Assembly: GCA_019456225.1 (NCBI GenBank)
Contig: VRUI01000025.1
Location: 1 to 57,598 of the forward strand
DNA length: 57,598 bases
Direction: 5' to 3'
Source: Planctomycetota bacterium
Lineage (GTDB): Bacteria; Planctomycetota; Phycisphaerae; Sedimentisphaerales; Anaerohalosphaeraceae
Notes under the pieces: generated by a model
Databases searched by the model: none
What the model was told of the DNA's origin: nothing
Seen by the model: only the letters and a program-made list of their open reading frames with translations
Program-made: the position numbers and the translations under genes
Shown: positions 22,004 through 36,736 of the stretch, in pieces
How the letters are laid out: each line of letters opens with the position of its first letter
Numbering within the stretch: position 1 is the stretch's first letter

Positions 22004-23092
22004 TTAGAACTTATCGTAGAAGATGTCGTCGCTTGCGATTCCCTTGTCTTCGAGTACTCTCGTAACCGCTTCGATCATTAGCGGAGGGCCGCACAAAAAT
22101 GCCTGTCTTTCAAGATCAGGTTCGAGCATCTTATCGACAGGGAGATGAACAAAACCGGTCTCACCGCTCCAGTCTGCGCCTTCTTCAGGCTCTGAAAGGG
22201 CATAAACAACGTGTAAGTTCGGGTGCTTCTTTGCGAGTTCTTTGAACTCTTTGAGGTAGAAGATGTCACCGGTTCCGCGACAGCCGAAGAACAGCCAGCA
22301 CGAACGATCCGGCCACTTGTCGTAGATCGAAAAAATAATATTCTTCATAGGAGCAAGACCGCATCCGCCGCCGACACAAATGATCTCGGTCTCGGGGTCA
22401 TCGTTAAGATAGAACTCACCGTAAGGACCGGTAAAGATGACCTCGTCACCGACATTAAGCTCGTGGAGAAACGTCGAGCCGATACCGCCGGGTACCAGGC
22501 GAACCATCATTTCGACACTGTCGTCTTCGTACGTAGGCGAGCTGATTGAATAAGCTCTGAAAACCGGTCCGTCAGGCGACGGTGCCTGGATCTGGATATA
22601 CTGACCGGGCCGCTGCGAAATCTTTTCGTCACCGTCGATCTTGAGGCGGATAAGTTTGATGTCGTAGGTCATAGTTTCGGAGATCGAAACGGTAGAGGTA
22701 AACATTTTAACGCTAAGCAGATCCGACGGAATACGGACATAAATGTCCTCACGAACCTTAACCTGGCAGGCGAGTCTAACATTACTCTTTTGTTCTTTAC
22801 GCGTCAGGTAGGGCGTCTCGGTCGGTAAAAGGGGGCCTCCGCCTTCGGTTACAACGATCTTGCAATGGCCGCAGGAACCCTTACCGCCGCATGCCGAGGG
22901 TATGAATATCTGGTTGGCAAAGAGGCTCTGAAGGAGCGTCTGTCCGCCGTCTACTTCAAGCGGTTTCTCACCAACATTGATATCAAGTTTGCAAATGCCA
23001 TAGTTGATCAGAACCTTCTCTGCTATAATAAGCACCAGAGAAAGCAAAACAACCAGCCCGCCAAAAGCTAATATTGCCCACAAATATACCAC
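22004..23092 (-). CDS. nqrF: Na+-translocating NADH-quinone reductase subunit F
   Basis: NADH-oxidising entry subunit of the Na+-NQR pump. Seen: N-terminal membrane anchor (LAFGGLVVLLSLVLIIAEKV), a [2Fe-2S] ferredoxin domain with C68, C74, C77 and C109 (CGGKGSCGHC, RLAC), an FAD-binding motif RAYSISS, and an NADH-binding block (CVGGGCGLAPM, FGCRGTGDIFYL, FLCGPPLMIEA). At 362 aa it is shorter than the roughly 407 aa of Vibrio NqrF but contains all cofactor sites. Presence of this FAD domain distinguishes the complex from Rnf. Last gene of the operon, 32 nt after nqrE. Confidence 0.95.
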   Translation of the reverse strand: MVYLWAILAFGGLVVLLSLVLIIAEKVLINYGICKLDINVGEKPLEVDGGQTLLQSLFANQIFIPSACGGKGSCGHCKIVVTEGGGPLLPTETPYLTRKEQKSNVRLACQVKVREDIYVRIPSDLLSVKMFTSTVSISETMTYDIKLIRLKIDGDEKISQRPGQYIQIQAPSPDGPVFRAYSISSPTYEDDSVEMMVRLVPGGIGSTFLHELNVGDEVIFTGPYGEFYLNDDPETEIICVGGGCGLAPMKNIIFSIYDKWPDRSCWLFFGCRGTGDIFYLKEFKELAKKHPNLHVVYALSEPEEGADWSGETGFVHLPVDKMLEPDLERQAFLCGPPLMIEAVTRVLEDKGIASDDIFYDKF

Positions 23093-23124: not shown

Positions 23125-23715
23125 CTATTGAATAGAAACCATTCCGCCAAATCCCATAAACGCCATCGCAAGAACGCCAGTTACGATCATCGCGATCGGA
23201 ACGTTCTCAAACGGCTTTGGAATATTGCTATACCTCATTTTTTGTCTTAAACCGGCCATCAGAACAATCGCGAGCATCCAGCCAAGTCCGCCGCCGAATC
23301 CAAACCCGACAGACTGAGCAAATGTATAATTGCGAATGATCAGGAACATAGATGCACCGAGGATGGCACAGTTAACCGTAATAAGCGGCAAAAAGATACC
23401 CAAGGCGAAATAGAGCTTGGGGCTGAACCGCTCGACAAACATCTCGACAAACTGCACGAATGCGGCGATCACCGCGATAAAAACGATAAACTGAAGATGT
23501 GCCAACTCAAGCGGGACAAGAACATAATGATAAACCGCAAAGTTGATCATCGAAGTCGTAACCGTAACAAAAGTAACAGCAGTTCCAAGACCGATGGCAG
23601 TGCCTATCTGGTTGGAACATGCTACAAACGAACACATTCCCAGGAAGTTTGCAAGCAGGATATTATTTGTAAATATCGCCGCTATTAGAATAACAATTGC
23701 AGAGGTTTCATTCAT
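23125..23715 (-). CDS. nqrE: Na+-translocating NADH-quinone reductase subunit E
   Basis: Integral membrane subunit with six hydrophobic helices, 196 aa (usual length 198). C28 in LANFLGMCSF and C116 in LITVNCAILG match the half-membrane cysteines that, with those in NqrD, hold the intramembrane iron-sulfur centre in the NQR family. The ATG shares a base with the nqrD stop (TAATG), so the two partner subunits are translated together. Confidence 0.96.
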   Translation of the reverse strand: MNETSAIVILIAAIFTNNILLANFLGMCSFVACSNQIGTAIGLGTAVTFVTVTTSMINFAVYHYVLVPLELAHLQFIVFIAVIAAFVQFVEMFVERFSPKLYFALGIFLPLITVNCAILGASMFLIIRNYTFAQSVGFGFGGGLGWMLAIVLMAGLRQKMRYSNIPKPFENVPIAMIVTGVLAMAFMGFGGMVSIQ

Positions 23716-24368
23716 TATTTGCTCTCCTCGGGGTCTGGCCCCTTAACAGCGTTAAATATCGCGATGAGTATTCCAAGTGCGATAAAAGCACCCGGTGCAC
23801 TTGAAATCACCTGGTTGGGCGTGTACCACGACTCACTTAGTAATTTATAGCCCATCACTTCGCCGGTTCCAAACAACTCCCGGAAAAAGCCGATCGCCGC
23901 CAGTACGACACCGTACCCGACGCCGTTTGCGACGCCATCGATCATCGAAAGCAGCGGTGGATTCTGCAAAGCAAATGCTTCGGCTCTGCCCATGACGATG
24001 CAGTTTGTAATGATCAAGCCGACATACGGGCCAAGTTGTTTACTCATCGCCGGGAAAAAAGCTTTAAGGATCTGATCGAACAGAATAACGAAAGTCGCGA
24101 TGATGGCGACCTCGGCGATCATCCTGATCCTGTGCGGCGTACGGTTCCGCAGCAGTGACACGAACAGGTTAGACCCAACACAAACGAACAGAAGTGCAAC
24201 TCCCATAACCAGCGAGTTTGACAACTTGCTGGTGACGGCAAGAGCCGAACAGATACCCAGCACCTGAATAGCGATAGGATTGTTCGCCCATGCACCTTCT
24301 TTAAATGTTTCGATGCCTTTGCCGCCGCACATACCGCCGCAAGTCATAGATCCCTTAGAATCAGCCAT
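23715..24368 (-). CDS. nqrD: Na+-translocating NADH-quinone reductase subunit D
   Basis: Integral membrane partner of NqrE, 217 aa. Conserved NNPIAIQVLGICSALAVT (C40) and VGLIITNCIVMGRAEAFA (C123) carry the intramembrane Fe-S cysteines. It has an uncommon N-terminal extension (about 20 residues) rich in Gly and Cys (MTCGGMCGGKG), absent from typical NqrD; the two extra Cys could be incidental. The gap of about 60 nt to nqrC is the largest within the operon. Confidence 0.95.
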   Translation of the reverse strand: MADSKGSMTCGGMCGGKGIETFKEGAWANNPIAIQVLGICSALAVTSKLSNSLVMGVALLFVCVGSNLFVSLLRNRTPHRIRMIAEVAIIATFVILFDQILKAFFPAMSKQLGPYVGLIITNCIVMGRAEAFALQNPPLLSMIDGVANGVGYGVVLAAIGFFRELFGTGEVMGYKLLSESWYTPNQVISSAPGAFIALGILIAIFNAVKGPDPEESK

Positions 24369-24429: not shown

Positions 24430-25242
24430 CTACTTAACAATTTTCTCAATAACTACATTAAGCATGTCAGCGACTTTGTCACATGTCATTGTCGCTCTTG
24501 TAACTCCATCGATCTCGTTATCGGCGGGGTTGCTAATATTGGTTTTGATCGAAATACCAGCTTTACCGTCGGCATCAACGATCTTCTTACCCAGGAAACC
24601 GTTTCGGAACTTATCTTTTACGATCTCGCCGCCTATTCCAGGAGTTTCTTCCTGCTCGTAAAATGTAATACCCTTAATAGTTCTAAGGTCAGGCTCAAGT
24701 GCAAGGATGCCTTTAATCGGCCCCCAAAGGCCAGGTCCGCCAAAATCAAGAGCTACTGCTAATGTCTTGTCGTCTGCGTCATGGTATCGGTAAAGCGTAA
24801 GCTCTGGATATTCATCGTCTAGCGAAGTAAGGTTTTGCTTGAAAGTTTCAATAAGCTCCTTTTTCGCCAGGTCTGCCGAGTAGGTTTCTTTGAATATTGC
24901 GACGATCCCATCAGCAAATTTTTTACCTTCGAGTTCTTCAGCAAATGATACAGCCAGTTCGTCGGGAGTTCCTTTGCCGGAGATTTTCTCTTTAAAAATA
25001 TCGACAACTTTGTCAGCCGATGATTTTTCTTCGATATTCTTTTTGAAGATATCCATAAGCTCTTCGGAACTTGCGTCTGGATTATAGTCCAGGCTTACTG
25101 CCGTGAAGATGTTGCGATTTTTTTCGGCAGCTTCGTTAATTTCCTGGAATGATTTTGTAAATACCGCGACGCCGGTTAGCAGCAGGGCACAAACAGTTCC
25201 CAAAATCGCGGCATAGCAAATTGTATATGTGTTACCCTTCAT
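24430..25242 (-). CDS. nqrC: Na+-translocating NADH-quinone reductase subunit C
   Basis: FMN-carrying subunit with one N-terminal membrane helix (ICYAAILGTVCALLLTGVAVF) and a periplasmic FMN-binding domain. The flavinylation motif is D245-G-V-T-R-A-T251, with T251 the likely FMN-linked residue (family S/D-G-A/V-T/S-x-A-T). GPGLWGPIKGILALEPD and GITFYEQEETPGIGG are classic NqrC/RnfG blocks. Between residues about 50 and 150 there is a Lys/Glu-rich insert with repeated 'DIFKE(K/N)I...ADKVVDIFKE' units, making it slightly longer than usual. It overlaps nqrB by 11 nt. Confidence 0.93.
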   Translation of the reverse strand: MKGNTYTICYAAILGTVCALLLTGVAVFTKSFQEINEAAEKNRNIFTAVSLDYNPDASSEELMDIFKKNIEEKSSADKVVDIFKEKISGKGTPDELAVSFAEELEGKKFADGIVAIFKETYSADLAKKELIETFKQNLTSLDDEYPELTLYRYHDADDKTLAVALDFGGPGLWGPIKGILALEPDLRTIKGITFYEQEETPGIGGEIVKDKFRNGFLGKKIVDADGKAGISIKTNISNPADNEIDGVTRATMTCDKVADMLNVVIEKIVK

Positions 25243-26398
25243 TTCTTAGCCTCCTGAACCGAATGCTGAAAACAATCTCATCGAGTATCGGGGCGACGAT
25301 ATTGCCAAGCAGTATGGCGAACATTACACCTTCCGGAAAAGCTGAGAAATTACGTATTAAAATTGCCAATGACCCAATAAGAATCCCGTATCCGTATTTA
25401 CCGGCATTGGTGATAGGCCCGCTGACCGGGTCGGTCGCCATAAAGAAGGCACCGAACAGAAGTCCGCCGGCTAAGAGACTATTGAGAGCCGGCATATATT
25501 CGTCCGGGTTTGATTTGTTAAGAGCAAATGACATAACCGCCGCGGAACCCAGTATAGAGACAACGGTACGCCAGTTGGATACTCTGGTCATCAGCAGGAA
25601 AACACCGCCTGCGATGATCATAAGAGCAGAGCTTTCGCCAAGACTACCGGAAACATTACCAAAGAACATATCAACGGCACTAACATCGGCCCCGCCAAGC
25701 GGAGTGGCCGAGGTAACACCGTCAACAATTATATCCGAATACCACGCTTGTGAGGCATTCGCCGTTTCGGTTGCAACTTCTCCCAGCTTTTTTGCCGCTT
25801 CAACGGCTTGGGCAGCAGGAGGAGCGTTTACATATTTAAACATGTTGCCGAACAAACCCTTACCAGTCGCCACCCATGTCGTCATCGCGGTAGGATACGC
25901 AAGGGCCAGGAAAACTCTTCCAACAATCGCCGGGTTAAATACATTACGCCCCGTTCCGCCGAAAAGCTCCTTTCCGACGAACACGCCGAACATGACTCCG
26001 ACCGCAACCATCCATAAAGGCAGGGTAGGGGGCAATACAAGCGGGAATATCAATCCGGTAACAAGAAAGCCTTCCTGTATCTCTTCCTTGCGAATGCATG
26101 CAAAGAGCACCTCAACAGCACCGCCTGCAGCATACGAGACGATTATCATAGGTAACAGACGCAACCCATAAAAATAGAACGCAGCAATTGTGCACGGCAA
26201 AAGCCCGATGATCACCATCGTCATATACCGCTTGACGTCGAGAGCGTCGCGTCCGTGCGGTGCCTGGATCGTTCTGGCAGCCGGAGAGAAAGCAAAATTC
26301 TCGATAGCCTCGTAAAGGGGCTTGAGCACTTTCAGCTTACCGCCTTCTTCAAAGTTCGGTTTAATTTTCTTTTCAAATATATTCAGCAAAAATTTCAA
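25232..26398 (-). CDS. nqrB: Na+-translocating NADH-quinone reductase subunit B
   Basis: Polytopic subunit that accepts electrons from NqrC and reduces quinone. 388 aa with about ten hydrophobic segments. The covalent FMN site is D226-G-V-T-S-A-T232 (then PLGG). Blocks RDALDVKRYMTMVIIGLLPC, FPLVLPPTLPLW, GGTGRNVFNPAIVGRVFL and MATDPVSGPIT are typical. Its ATG overlaps the nqrA stop (ATGA), and its end overlaps nqrC. Confidence 0.95.
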   Translation of the reverse strand: MKFLLNIFEKKIKPNFEEGGKLKVLKPLYEAIENFAFSPAARTIQAPHGRDALDVKRYMTMVIIGLLPCTIAAFYFYGLRLLPMIIVSYAAGGAVEVLFACIRKEEIQEGFLVTGLIFPLVLPPTLPLWMVAVGVMFGVFVGKELFGGTGRNVFNPAIVGRVFLALAYPTAMTTWVATGKGLFGNMFKYVNAPPAAQAVEAAKKLGEVATETANASQAWYSDIIVDGVTSATPLGGADVSAVDMFFGNVSGSLGESSALMIIAGGVFLLMTRVSNWRTVVSILGSAAVMSFALNKSNPDEYMPALNSLLAGGLLFGAFFMATDPVSGPITNAGKYGYGILIGSLAILIRNFSAFPEGVMFAILLGNIVAPILDEIVFSIRFRRLRNEG

Positions 26399-27840
26399 TA
26401 GAGATTCTCCTCAGAGGATTCTTTTCGTCTTTCCTGTTCTTTTTGCACTGCTTCTTCCTGTTTGATTCGCTGAGCTTCGGCTTCGGCTTTTTCTTCTTCG
26501 ATAAACACTTTGGCACCGATAAACTCTTCGCGAAGCTCGATCTTGGAAGGGCACACAAACGAACAAAGACCGCATTCAACACAAAGATCAACACGAGCGG
26601 CATCTGCTTCTTCGATCATATCACTGTAAAGATACTTATGTATAAGGTGAGGCATTATCCCGGCAGGACAAACTTCCTCACAGAAATTACATGAAACGCA
26701 CGCACGAGGTTCACCGCGAAGTGTTGTCGTAAACTTTTCAGCGAACTTCCCTCGTAAAGTACTTAGGAACGCGTTAGAATAGCTGCTCCGGTCAAATCCC
26801 GGTCTGAGCCAACCGAGGAATTCACGCTCGGTATGTTCCGGGATGATCGTAATACCGGCGATTTCCACACCAAGACCAATTTCATCTTCGCCAAGCATTC
26901 TACCGGTAAAAAAACCACCGTTGATCAAACGCATCTGACCTTCACGAGCGTATTGCTCTCTAATCCTGGCGATCGGGTAACCGGCCATAACCTTAACATG
27001 CTCAGGAGTTTTCACCCCGGGCCCGCCGATAGATACAATGCGTACCAGGGAAGTCTTAGTGTGGGTAAGAGCTCTGTCAACAGCCAGAACACCTCCGGCC
27101 TTAACACCCCAGATAGGTCCATCGGCACGCTTTAATCCAAGATTACGTGCAAGAATATTAAAGTTAGTACGTGTGTACTCCAGCGGAACCTCGATCAGTT
27201 TGACCCAGGCATATCCGCGAATCTGATCTTTAACCTTGTCGTGGAACTTTGTCCTGGACTTAGGTATTACCAAATAGATCGGTTGATACTCAAGCATCGA
27301 CTGAAGATACTCAAGGCCTCGAGTAAACTGAAGCAACCGGTTCTTGAACTGGACATCGCCCCTGGCCGTAAAAGGATCAAGACTAAGCGTAGAAACGATC
27401 ACAGCTTGCGGTGTTCCCATCGGATCAGGAAGTTCGTTCGTATACGCATCGCGAAAGAACTGCCACGCCCCAAGAGCAAGAAGTTTATGCCGCATTTCAC
27501 CGGAAGCACCCATTTGCCTGGCAATATGCGGGATACTATCCTTGTCGTAATCAGGTACGTCGTCGACCGTGGAAATATCTTCGAGAACGATATGCCCTTC
27601 AGTGGATGAAAGCCTGACAGTTCCGGCACGCGGAGAAAGGAGTGGAACATCATAATTACCGGGATCGACTGCAAGGACATCGCCGGTATCGACCTTTTGG
27701 CCTTCCTCGACGTAAATGCTGGTAAAATCAAAGCGTTTGCTTTCCAGTGGAAGATATAGAGCCTCTGGCTCCGGCAGGATCTTCACCTTTTTGCTGGGCC
27801 TGCCCTGCAGGGTTATGTTATAACCGCCTCTAAATTTCAT
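26395..27840 (-). CDS. nqrA: Na+-translocating NADH-quinone reductase subunit A with two [4Fe-4S] motifs
   Basis: First gene of the operon, 481 aa (Vibrio NqrA about 446). The N-terminal barrel (FRGGYNITLQGRPSKKVKIL, VDTGDVLAVDPGNYDVPLLSPRAGTVRL), the central Rossmann-like part and the 'GAWQFFRDAYTNELPDP' block are NqrA-like. Unlike classical NqrA, which has lost most cysteines, this protein has two complete ferredoxin motifs: C381-C384-C387-C391P and C420-C423-C426-C430P, spaced as in RnfC. A 50-residue charged, coiled-coil-like tail (EEEKAEAEAQRIKQEE...) follows. The presence of nqrF confirms an NQR, not an RNF, operon. It may represent an early-branching NQR with extra Fe-S clusters. Confidence 0.88.
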   Translation of the reverse strand: MKFRGGYNITLQGRPSKKVKILPEPEALYLPLESKRFDFTSIYVEEGQKVDTGDVLAVDPGNYDVPLLSPRAGTVRLSSTEGHIVLEDISTVDDVPDYDKDSIPHIARQMGASGEMRHKLLALGAWQFFRDAYTNELPDPMGTPQAVIVSTLSLDPFTARGDVQFKNRLLQFTRGLEYLQSMLEYQPIYLVIPKSRTKFHDKVKDQIRGYAWVKLIEVPLEYTRTNFNILARNLGLKRADGPIWGVKAGGVLAVDRALTHTKTSLVRIVSIGGPGVKTPEHVKVMAGYPIARIREQYAREGQMRLINGGFFTGRMLGEDEIGLGVEIAGITIIPEHTEREFLGWLRPGFDRSSYSNAFLSTLRGKFAEKFTTTLRGEPRACVSCNFCEEVCPAGIMPHLIHKYLYSDMIEEADAARVDLCVECGLCSFVCPSKIELREEFIGAKVFIEEEKAEAEAQRIKQEEAVQKEQERRKESSEENLY

Positions 27841-28192: not shown

Positions 28193-28423
28193 CTACGGTT
28201 TAAGTTGGGTTTGACCCGGCTCAAACAGAAAAACATCCTCTACTCTGAGATTAAATGCCGCTGATATCTTAAATGCAAGCGTAAGCGAGGGCGTATATTT
28301 CCCCTGCTCGACAGCGATGATCGTCTGACGTGTCACACCGGCAATATCAGCCAGTTTTTGCTGAGTCATCTCCCCATGCTCAAACCGAAGCCTTCTAATA
28401 TTATTGCTAAGCGCGCTACTCAT
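28193..28423 (-). CDS. XRE-family helix-turn-helix regulator
   Basis: A 76-aa DNA-binding protein made almost only of an XRE/Cro helix-turn-helix ([59 protein letters not shown]). This matches the short YozG/'PTSRQTISAIE' group often paired with small membrane proteins. The ATG at 28423 lies inside the end of the preceding membrane protein gene (8-nt overlap), so it is translationally coupled; a TTG at 28447 is less likely. It is the last gene of a four-gene operon whose promoter region contains palindromes suited to autoregulation. Confidence 0.9.
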
Positions 28424-28838
28424 CTGCCTGTTCCTTTGCGCATTCAAATAGAATAACAGATGACATGACGGCTTGGGCGACTAAAAGGCATCCACAAAAA
28501 ATCATTGGCAGATAGTAGACGGCAATACCCCCCTTGCCGCCAATAAGAAAGAAAGGGATTAAGCACATTAGCGTCATGCATCCAGTCATCGCCATAGCGG
28601 AGATATAAAAAGCCTTGTGTCTGATCTTTTTTTCACGCTCATCGTATTTGGACTCCATTTTATAGCCAATCACGGCAAAGATCGCCGCCAATACGATCCC
28701 TGCGACAATGATTATCATTACGAAAATCATACCGGATGCGTTTACTTTGACCAAATAGGCAAACATCATACCCAAAAGAACTGTTGAAACTGCAACACTA
28801 ATAAGTTCGACCCACGCATTTTTTTCTAATCTATTCAT
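28416..28838 (-). CDS. 4-TM membrane protein, third of three paralogues
   Basis: A 140-aa protein with four hydrophobic helices ([82 protein letters not shown]) and a cytoplasmic loop with [14 protein letters not shown] between helices 2 and 3. The motif DER(D/E)xxI is shared with the two upstream genes (28835 and 29262), which have the same helix layout. Its ATG overlaps the upstream stop (ATGA). Resembles small membrane proteins found beside short XRE regulators (DUF2178-like); function unknown. Confidence 0.75.
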
Positions 28839-29269
28839 AGTTTTGATCCTTTACCATACTGAACTAAGATCGCTATAGAGTAAACCAGCATTACAATAAA
28901 TAGTATTCCCACATTGATAAAAGCAAGGCACCATACCGCAATCGACCCATCAACACCGACAATGAAACGCGGAATTATAGTCGCCGCGAACAGTAATATC
29001 CATACAGAAACAAAAGCGGCAATCACTGCCCGTTTCTCTATAAGGCTGTCACGTTCATCTTTTGCGACTTCATGGGGGCTCTGTTTCTTGTGAAGAAAAA
29101 CAATCGGCAATACCAGAAACACACAGTATGCTGCCAGTAAGGGCCAAATACCTGTAATTCCAGGTCCTTTCTTAAGAACAAAAAAATGAAGATAGATATA
29201 TCCAAACGATGCCATGCAAATCAAACACCCGCTTAGATTAAGCCAGGCTCCCTTTTGCGTTTTATTCAT
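28835..29269 (-). CDS. 4-TM membrane protein, second of three paralogues
   Basis: Starts at ATG 29269 (AGGAGG 8 nt upstream) inside the end of the preceding gene, giving 144 aa. Four helices (LSGCLICMASFGYIYLHFFVL, ITGIWPLLAAYCVFLVLPIVF, VIAAFVSVWILLFAATIIPRF, AFINVGILFIVMLVYSIAILV) with VAKDERDSLIEKRA between helices 2 and 3, matching the DERD motif of its neighbours. Membrane protein of unknown function, co-translated with its paralogues. Confidence 0.75.
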   Translation of the reverse strand: MNKTQKGAWLNLSGCLICMASFGYIYLHFFVLKKGPGITGIWPLLAAYCVFLVLPIVFLHKKQSPHEVAKDERDSLIEKRAVIAAFVSVWILLFAATIIPRFIVGVDGSIAVWCLAFINVGILFIVMLVYSIAILVQYGKGSKL

Positions 29270-29693
29270 TGCTTTGGCCTCCTTTGCCGTACATGACAAG
29301 AGTTATTATTGATCGCATAAAAAATTGCATTATGCCGGCACCCATAAATATGCATGGAAGCCATGCAACAGAAATATTTGCTTTAGGACCCATTATGAAA
29401 AACGGCAGCATGCATGTTAACCCTACAAATAGATATGCTGACAGAAAACCTCCGAGAGCGCCCTTATGATCGATCATTTTATCCCGTTCATCACATTCAA
29501 ACTGCGTGGGAAGCTTTTTGAAAATCACCGGTACAAATAATGAAAGACTGCAAAGCCCCATGGTTGCCATCAATGCAAGAGCCCTTGAACCTTCTAATTT
29601 CGGCAACATAAACAGATAAACCGGAATAATCAATATAATTGCGACCGTATAGTTTACAAAGACAAACCTTGCCGCTTTATGTGCTCTATTCAT
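29262..29693 (-). CDS. 4-TM membrane protein, first of three paralogues
   Basis: Starts at ATG 29693 (AAGGAG 6 nt upstream), 143 aa. Four helices (FVFVNYTVAIILIIPVYLF, LALMATMGLCSLSLFVPVIF, GGFLSAYLFVGLTCMLPFFIM, VAWLPCIFMGAGIMQFFM) and FECDERDKMIDHKG in the central loop. Together with the next two genes it forms a tandem paralogue array followed by an XRE regulator. The array could form a hetero-oligomeric membrane complex; no transport or enzyme motif is visible. Confidence 0.75.
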   Translation of the reverse strand: MNRAHKAARFVFVNYTVAIILIIPVYLFMLPKLEGSRALALMATMGLCSLSLFVPVIFKKLPTQFECDERDKMIDHKGALGGFLSAYLFVGLTCMLPFFIMGPKANISVAWLPCIFMGAGIMQFFMRSIITLVMYGKGGQSNE

Positions 29694-29725
29694 TTTCACT
29701 CCTTTCATGAATGTAACCTTAACTA

Positions 29726-35000: not shown

Positions 35001-36254
35001 CTACTTTTTCTTCTGTGCTTCTTCGGCTTTGATCAATTCCTGAACGCGTTTTTTGATTTCTTTATTCTTGTGCTGAACAAGCTCTTTTACTTCACCTTCC
35101 CGTTTGGCAAGATTATTCGTCAGATTGTCAATTCTTTTTCTAAGCCGGTTGTACTTGTGCTTTTTGATCGTGACACCAATATCAAATTCTTTTGAGACAA
35201 TATCAGTAAGATCGCCGAGTAATTTTGCTTTTTGCTCTTTCGTTTTAGCGGCAGTATATTTATCGAGAATCTCGATTCTTATATGTCGCAGCATTACTTC
35301 TTCGACGAGATACTGGCCATTGATCGGATCATGCCTGTAACCCTTCCAAAGCCGGACAAATCGATTTCTGAAATGATTAAACTTAGTTCGATAAGCTTTG
35401 GCATTTTTTTCGACATCTTTAAGATCTTGTGCTAAATCTGGCCAGAATGTTGTCAACCAGGAATGAAATTTCTTATCATCATCAGTGAAAGGTTTGTCTT
35501 TGTAGGCCGGCATCGTTGTCTTTTTAAGCTTAATAACTACCGGCTTATTATTGCTGTTGACAGCCTTATCCGGTTTTGCCGCGATAACTATCCCGGAAAC
35601 GGGCGAACCACCCTCATTTTCGCCATTGATCAAATTTTTAATACGTTTTTTGATCTCTAAGTCTTTTCGCTGAACCAGCTTTTTAACGTCACGTTCACGT
35701 CTGGCAAGGTCATTCCTCATCCTACTGATTTTTCTTCTAAGCTTGTGGTAGTTGTATTTTTTGATCGTGACAGTAATATCAAATTCTTTTGAGACAATAT
35801 TAGTAAGATCGCCGTGCAATTTTGTTTTCTGCTGTTTCGTTTTAGCGGCCATATATTTATCGAGAATCTCGATTCTTATAAGTCGCAGCTTTACTTCTTC
35901 GACAAGAAACTGGCCATTGATCGCATTGAGCTTGTAACCTTTCCACAGCCGGCGGTCCGACCTTTTTTCATTATGGAATTTGGTTTGATATGCTTTGGCC
36001 TTCTTTTCGAGTGCTTTAAGTTTTTTCGCATTTTCCGGCCAAAATGTCGTCAGCCATGAATGAAATTTCTTATCGTCATCAGTAAACACTTTACCTTCAA
36101 AGACAGGCATCTTTGTCGGTATCAGCTTAATAACTACCGGTTTTTTTTTGCCGCCCCTGGCCTTATCCGGTTTCGCTGCTATAGCCGCCCCGCAAATATA
36201 TAAAGCAAGTGCAAGTACCAGAATTGATAAAATAGAATTCCTTGACGATTTCAA
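35001..36254 (-). CDS. secreted protein with internal tandem duplication (2 x ~199 aa)
   Basis: Exported protein of about 417 aa starting at TTG 36254, which has GGAG 6 nt upstream (in the last codons of the upstream gene) and gives the signal KSSRNSILSILVLALALYIC. The mature protein is two copies of one domain, offset by 597 nt: FTDDDKKFHSWLTTFWP, RLWKGY, NGQ(F/Y)LVEEV, R(L/H)IRIEILDKY, AAKTK, GDLT(N/D)IVSKEFDI and a Lys/Arg-rich helical end with EIKKR(I/V). Nucleotide similarity between the copies is high, indicating a recent duplication. Helical, highly charged, no enzyme motif. Third gene of an ECF sigma operon, so probably part of its sensing or output. Family not recognised. Confidence 0.7.
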   Translation of the reverse strand: MKSSRNSILSILVLALALYICGAAIAAKPDKARGGKKKPVVIKLIPTKMPVFEGKVFTDDDKKFHSWLTTFWPENAKKLKALEKKAKAYQTKFHNEKRSDRRLWKGYKLNAINGQFLVEEVKLRLIRIEILDKYMAAKTKQQKTKLHGDLTNIVSKEFDITVTIKKYNYHKLRRKISRMRNDLARRERDVKKLVQRKDLEIKKRIKNLINGENEGGSPVSGIVIAAKPDKAVNSNNKPVVIKLKKTTMPAYKDKPFTDDDKKFHSWLTTFWPDLAQDLKDVEKNAKAYRTKFNHFRNRFVRLWKGYRHDPINGQYLVEEVMLRHIRIEILDKYTAAKTKEQKAKLLGDLTDIVSKEFDIGVTIKKHKYNRLRKRIDNLTNNLAKREGEVKELVQHKNKEIKKRVQELIKAEEAQKKK

Positions 36255-36256
36255 TG

Positions 36257-36736
36257 TTATCTCCAAAAGCTGGCGTCGGCTACCATTATTTCGTATTCCA
36301 AAGCATCAACAGCATCGACTGATTCAGTTTCGTCATCATCGAGACTGCTCGAAAGAATAGTGTAATTGATTTCATTAAGCTCATTGGCGATGCTGCTGGC
36401 AACTGCATCCTCGCCCCAGAAAAAACCACTCGCAATATCTGTTCGTATTGGAGAGTCTCCCTGGTGTATCATGGTCCGTATGCCTATGAAAGCGACTATA
36501 GCGATCATAGCGGCAACTGCCGTACGCATAGAGATCGTGTTCATCCGCCTGTCGCGCCGAGACTTCAGCCGAGCGGAGATATCATTTTTTATACCGCTGA
36601 TAACAGCAGCGTCAGGTACGAGCGTTTCGCCCGAAGCGATGATCTCGTCTCCAATACGAATATCTTCTTTGACACCGTCAACCTGATCGGCATCATAAAA
36701 ACTTGCTAACAAATTGTCTAAATTTTCTTTACTCAT
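36257..36736 (-). CDS. single-TM protein, probable anti-sigma factor
   Basis: A 159-aa protein starting at ATG 36736. The N-terminal cytoplasmic part (NLDNLLASFYDADQVDGVKE, IISGIKNDISARLKSRRDRR region) precedes one membrane helix (TAVAAMIAIVAFIGIRTMI) and an acidic outer part (SSSLDDDETESVDAVDALEYEI). No zinc motif. Position after a sigma factor and before a secreted protein suggests a membrane anti-sigma factor with unrelated sequence. The Shine-Dalgarno sequence is weak, and the gap of 100 nt to the sigma gene contains a perfect hairpin. Confidence 0.55.
   Translation of the reverse strand: MSKENLDNLLASFYDADQVDGVKEDIRIGDEIIASGETLVPDAAVISGIKNDISARLKSRRDRRMNTISMRTAVAAMIAIVAFIGIRTMIHQGDSPIRTDIASGFFWGEDAVASSIANELNEINYTILSSSLDDDETESVDAVDALEYEIMVADASFWR

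Follow-up and report, generated by a model that had tools for sequence, protein, structure and literature searches.

The nqrA-type gene described here lies in a planctomycete contig of 57,598 nucleotides, the whole of which is called the window below. Its open reading frame is on the minus strand (27840 to 26395); the plus strand of the same stretch is not the gene. It is the first of six genes in the order nqrA-B-C-D-E-F, all on the minus strand and overlapping or nearly abutting. The features of the locus are as follows.

26395–27840, minus strand: nqrA-type gene with a two-[4Fe-4S] ferredoxin domain, 481 aa (P0001), from the ORF list, profile matches, and fold
27421–27483, minus strand: NqrA-type loop ALGAWQFFRDAYTNELPDP at the site of the RnfC FMN/NAD loop GxGGAGFPT, from alignment
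26755–26829, minus strand: NqrA-type membrane-anchor loop REFLGWLRPGFDRSSYSNAFLSTL (REFLGWLRPGF), absent from RnfC, from alignment
26665–26700, minus strand: [4Fe-4S] motif 1, C381-x2-C-x2-C-x3-CP, CVSCNFCEEVCP (C381VSCNFCEEVCP), residues 381–392
26548–26583, minus strand: [4Fe-4S] motif 2, C420-x2-C-x2-C-x3-CP, CVECGLCSFVCP (C420VECGLCSFVCP), residues 420–431
25232–26398, minus strand: nqrB, 388 aa, with the NQR-specific N-terminal quinone-pocket stretch, equivalents of G140, G141, E144, and E157, and the FMN site DGVTSAT
24430–25242, minus strand: nqrC, 270 aa, with the FMN site DGVTRAT
23715–24368, minus strand: nqrD, 217 aa, with the [2Fe-2S] ligand motifs LGICSA and IITNCIV
23125–23715, minus strand: nqrE, 196 aa, with the [2Fe-2S] ligand motifs LGMCSF and ITVNCAI
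22004–23092, minus strand: nqrF, 362 aa, with TM, [2Fe-2S] (CGGKGSCGHC), FAD (RAYS), and NAD domains

The sequence-only reading of this DNA had taken the genes for a true NQR operon, with nqrF in it and rnfB out of it, and the analysis bears this out: the nqrABCDEF set is complete, NqrF has all of its TM, 2Fe-2S, FAD, and NAD parts, and no rnfB was found among the ORFs and profile matches of the window nqr operon. All the other NQR cofactor ligands are retained, that is, those of the NqrD/E [2Fe-2S] centre, the covalent-FMN motifs of NqrB and NqrC, and the NqrF sites. The N-terminal stretch of NqrB and its E157 equivalent, which belong to the inhibitor/quinone pocket, occur in the window NqrB and not in RnfD. 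The Na+-NQR of Vibrio cholerae (PDB 7xk3) has the same six-gene A–F order, the same NqrF input, and the same core cofactor ligands, and it shares the NqrA anchor loop and the NqrB N-terminal stretch. The RNF complex differs in that the window operon has NqrF and lacks RnfB; rnfB is found in a separate locus of the window genome, which encodes a full RNF (rnfC, D, G, E, A, and B at G000:C94). Judged by its sequence, the window operon is that of a genuine Na+-NQR, for which Na+ pumping and NADH:quinone activity are predicted. The window NqrC has 270 residues compared with about 205 in relatives, and the additional N-terminal part resembles a repeated IFK...EK/ET segment.

The two complete RnfC-type [4Fe-4S] motifs that had been noticed in the C-terminus of NqrA are present, starting at C381 and C420, and Pfam Fer4 dicluster models match residues 377–434. 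RnfC of the RNF complex (PDB 8ahx, 7zc6, 9eri) has the same C-terminal two-[4Fe-4S] domain with identical motif spacing, and the cores of the proteins are homologous. However, the alignment with RnfC showed that the motifs of its FMN/NAD+ site, GxGGAGFPT, ECEP, and GGP, are all lost from the window NqrA, which also has the NQR-type anchor loop. Where RnfC has GxGGAGFPT, the window protein has ALGAWQFFRDAY, which is similar to SGLWTxxRTRPFSKVP, the type found in classic NqrA. The closest solved relative, by sequence and by predicted fold, is V. cholerae NqrA, the two being about 22% identical where the folds match; the V. cholerae protein is without a cofactor, whereas the window NqrA has two complete [4Fe-4S] motifs. 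In the structure comparison RnfC came second. The AlphaFold model matches NqrA and then RnfC in its overall fold and is poor over the ferredoxin domain (pLDDT 31–55), for which reason a single model was dropped as a source of cluster geometry. The window NqrA falls below the cut-off of the RnfC model TIGR01945 (102 bits vs. 246) and below those of the NCBIfam nqrA model TIGR01936 (145 bits vs. 321) and of NF003761 (226 vs. 450), so that automatic annotation would probably miss its NqrA identity.

A scan of species genomes revealed 21 loci at 52–64% identity to the window NqrA, nearly all of them in planctomycete MAGs. A homologue at least 51% identical was present in at least 41 of the 161 genomes of the order, partial matches included. 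The window-type FeS-NQR clade is referred to as class I, and every class I contig of sufficient length carried nqrA(FeS)-B-C-D-E-F. All eight cysteines were invariant in the homologues (36 of 36), and this, together with the spread over 41 of 161 genomes, indicates that the motifs are not due to chance. The ferredoxin domain is the best-conserved part of NqrA, with a mean pairwise identity of 0.78 against 0.40–0.68 for the other domains; such conservation would not be expected of a useless remnant. The sampling of FeS-NQRs was confined to Planctomycetota, and in plasmid records the NqrA matches listed for P0001 were all of the classic kind. L014, a 3.2-kb contig that bears an Actinomycetota label and carries the planctomycete FeS-NqrA/NqrB, is probably misbinned.

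Several other types occur in the phylum. Classic cofactor-less NqrA was found (e.g., L058, L061–L080, L095–L098), and true RnfC too. A search of the open-access literature yielded no description of an NqrA with iron-sulfur clusters from either planctomycetes or anammox bacteria; a subscription paper may contain one. It is thus not the case that all planctomycete NqrA are already described with clusters, a possibility that the earlier reading had left standing. A class II FeS-NqrA, next to nqrF, has a decayed FMN loop, GxxSLGxSGIPT. In L082 (2205–10757), L085 (3950–13116), and L086 (1003–10191), and partially in L083 and L084, the class II "NqrF" consists of an NqrF-type TM+[2Fe-2S] part fused to a NuoE-like domain, without the FAD/NAD module, and beside it is encoded a protein of about 1030–1052 aa with NuoF, Fer4_20, and pyridine-nucleotide-oxidoreductase parts. 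The class II NQR core thus seems to be fed by a module like complex I or a bifurcating transhydrogenase. The anammox-type (Brocadiales-like) NQR (L092, L093, L094, L100) resembles that of the window in having NqrF and an NqrA with two [4Fe-4S] motifs; it differs in its NqrA of about 341 aa, its NqrF of 545 aa, its fused NqrDE, and its lower branch in the core tree. No match to the N-terminal barrel was found in these four NqrA. An NQR with fused D and E has been annotated in "Ca. Jettenia ecosi" (PMC6828613), and the available passages of that paper make no mention of FeS in NqrA. One contig of one genome (G394:C13) carries both a classic NqrA (L080) and a short FeS-bearing NqrA (L094).

The core tree was built from the membrane subunits only (NqrB/RnfD, NqrD/RnfE, and NqrE/RnfA) and rooted on RNF; some rows were without NqrD/E. 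RNF and NQR were separated with a support of 100/100 (100/99 without long branches), and the window core grouped with NQR. Within NQR the order of branching was the anammox-like type, L089, L082–86, L088/L091, and after these class I, L081, and a single classic clade, with a support of 85–93 at some deep branches and an order of the two lowest branches that shifts between data sets. The classic clade (100/100) comprises Gamma- and Alphaproteobacteria, Bacteroidota, and Planctomycetota. Beneath this single cofactor-less clade the FeS-NQRs (class I, two further types, and the anammox-like type) form a paraphyletic grade, and their monophyly was rejected (AU p 0.021; 0.0015 after removal of long branches). 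The grouping of class I with classic NQR had a support of 99/97 in the core tree without long branches, in agreement with the 98/97 of an NqrA tree from which the ferredoxin domain had been cut off. With NqrA alone, a grouping of class I with RnfC was not rejected (p 0.13), and the placement of class I therefore rests on the core and NqrA trees jointly.

The trees and the loss of the FMN/NAD motifs place the protein outside RnfC, and not firmly within it as the sequence-only reading had allowed. Its idea of an evolutionary intermediate is strengthened by the two separate trees and by the stepwise loss of FMN-site motifs that the alignment revealed among the relatives. Since the same ferredoxin domain occurs in RnfC, the order of the trees is read most simply as retention followed by a single later loss; the clusters look like an ancestral trait that was lost once in classic NQR. 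We regard the FeS-NQR as well supported as a real type and as most likely ancestral; what its clusters do, we infer.

NqrA has been described as a subunit without a redox cofactor and of unknown function, whose cysteines were lost after the loss of RnfB, and the origin of NQR has been placed in an ancestor of Chlorobi/Bacteroidetes (PMC4014512, PMC12174285, PMC9588780). A conserved FeS-NqrA beside NqrF means that cluster loss and RnfB loss are separable. In the core trees, the classic NQR of Proteobacteria, Bacteroidota, and Planctomycetota is one late clade above the FeS-bearing planctomycete NQRs. The FeS-NQR bears both on what NqrA does and on the order in which the steps of NQR evolution took place.

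The explanation towards which we lean is that the window protein is the NqrA of a genuine Na+-NQR, in which the two-[4Fe-4S] domain of the RnfC ancestor has survived and the FMN/NAD+ site has not, the clusters serving as a second, output-side one-electron port. The clusters are most likely live, touching the riboflavin of NqrB as this additional port. Electrons from NADH would enter via NqrF (FAD, 2Fe-2S), cross the NqrD/E 2Fe-2S centre, and pass through the FMN of NqrC and the FMN of NqrB to the NqrB riboflavin, with Na+ pumped, as in V. cholerae. The riboflavin would then donate to quinone at the retained NqrB pocket or, in the manner of RnfC, to the NqrA clusters. In RnfC the clusters connect the RnfD riboflavin (11.7 Å) to FMN and NAD+ (PMC9588780). 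Since the window NqrA has lost this FMN/NAD+ terminus, its clusters would lead only as far as a remodelled cleft or the surface of the protein, as an outlet or buffer to an NqrA-bound quinone or a soluble carrier, and quinone in the NqrB pocket would be a parallel route.

Photo-labelling in V. cholerae located the ubiquinone head-ring at L32–M39 and F131–K138 of NqrA, about 30 Å from riboflavin, a distance too great for transfer, and the N-terminus of NqrB intertwines with R330–N379, the equivalent of the anchor loop (PMC9325719). From the alignment we infer that F131–K138 is the loop at the place of the RnfC FMN loop. A cluster wire would span the gap of about 30 Å between riboflavin and the NqrA quinone site, and it is for this bridging that we favour an output-side port leading to an NqrA-bound acceptor. 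In classic NQR the clusters would have been lost later, once.

Structural FeS clusters occur in other enzymes, and the main, if dull, rival is that the [4Fe-4S] centres assemble and merely stabilise the NqrA–NqrB contact, or are vestigial, with no electrons carried in turnover. The classic NqrA fold does work without clusters (PMC12174285), but both motifs and the domain are fully conserved across many genera, and we consider such a role unlikely. Strong conservation of the ferredoxin domain also speaks for an input of ferredoxin, the other suggestion of the sequence-only reading: ferredoxin or flavodoxin in its reduced form would dock on NqrA, and electrons would run through the clusters to the NqrB riboflavin and on to quinone, the complex oxidising both NADH and ferredoxin; homology to RnfC also puts the clusters beside the riboflavin (PMC9588780). 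However, entry at riboflavin would skip the Na+-pumping transmembrane electron loop and waste the energy. A coupled ferredoxin enzyme is moreover already there, with an RnfB match in all 12 class I genomes checked (11 over the cut-off) and the full RNF of the window genome, and ferredoxin genes are not a recurrent neighbour of the operon; we judge this input to be a little less probable than the structural role.

The RnfC of the same genome carries the same motifs and could have been the source of the ferredoxin domain, regained by a classic NqrA through recombination. This is very improbable: the core tree, in which NqrA is not used, puts these operons outside the classic clade, with other FeS-NQRs branching lower, and NqrA minus its ferredoxin domain is placed identically. 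We give hardly any credence to the protein being the RnfC of an RNF that uses RnfB from a second locus, with NqrF as an accessory. RnfB is indeed encoded elsewhere in the genome, but as part of a full rnfCDGEA+B operon; all complete contigs have NqrF directly next to the operon, the FMN/NAD loops are lost, and the sequences include both the NQR anchor loop and the NqrB stretch.

Beside the output-side port as such, we raise tentatively the possibility that Planctomycetota hold a ladder of living RNF-to-NQR intermediates whose NqrA clusters act as a working electron exit. First, NqrF would have replaced RnfB and the NqrA anchor/quinone architecture would have arisen; the FMN/NAD+ site would then have decayed, and the [4Fe-4S] clusters would have been lost last. 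The exit would lead from the NqrA clusters into the former FMN/NAD+ cleft, where quinone or some other acceptor would take up the electrons. If true, the ladder would account for the original purpose of NqrA and for the quinone-binding region in the cofactor-less Vibrio NqrA.

In several relatives (flanks of L003–L022), the neighbours of the operon, identified by eye from sequence, encode siroheme-route heme synthesis, HemA/HemL/HemB, cytochrome c assembly, and a polyprenyl synthase, which suggests respiration; this clustering was not seen around the window copy. In the window genome MenD is encoded together with a UbiA homologue (G000:C124), and no cytochrome bd was found. Of the 12 class I genomes checked, each at least 90% complete, eight (G012, G014, G048, G450, G454, G493, G518, and G523) showed neither MenD nor MqnA/D, so a quinone acceptor is unsure in those genomes; they may make quinone by an unrecognised pathway, scavenge it, or use a different acceptor. 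That differences in NqrB length reflect a lost quinone pocket in genomes without menaquinone was rejected, since every class I NqrB retains the N-terminal stretch. Downstream of the operon in L013, which matches one of the genomes without MenD and MqnA/D (G454), is a pair of radical SAM and UbiA genes. In the window, three successive small membrane proteins of 140–154 aa, apparent paralogues with weak Pfam matches, are encoded directly upstream of nqrA (28416–29708), and a 421-aa ORF at 35001–36266 has halves near-identical to each other.
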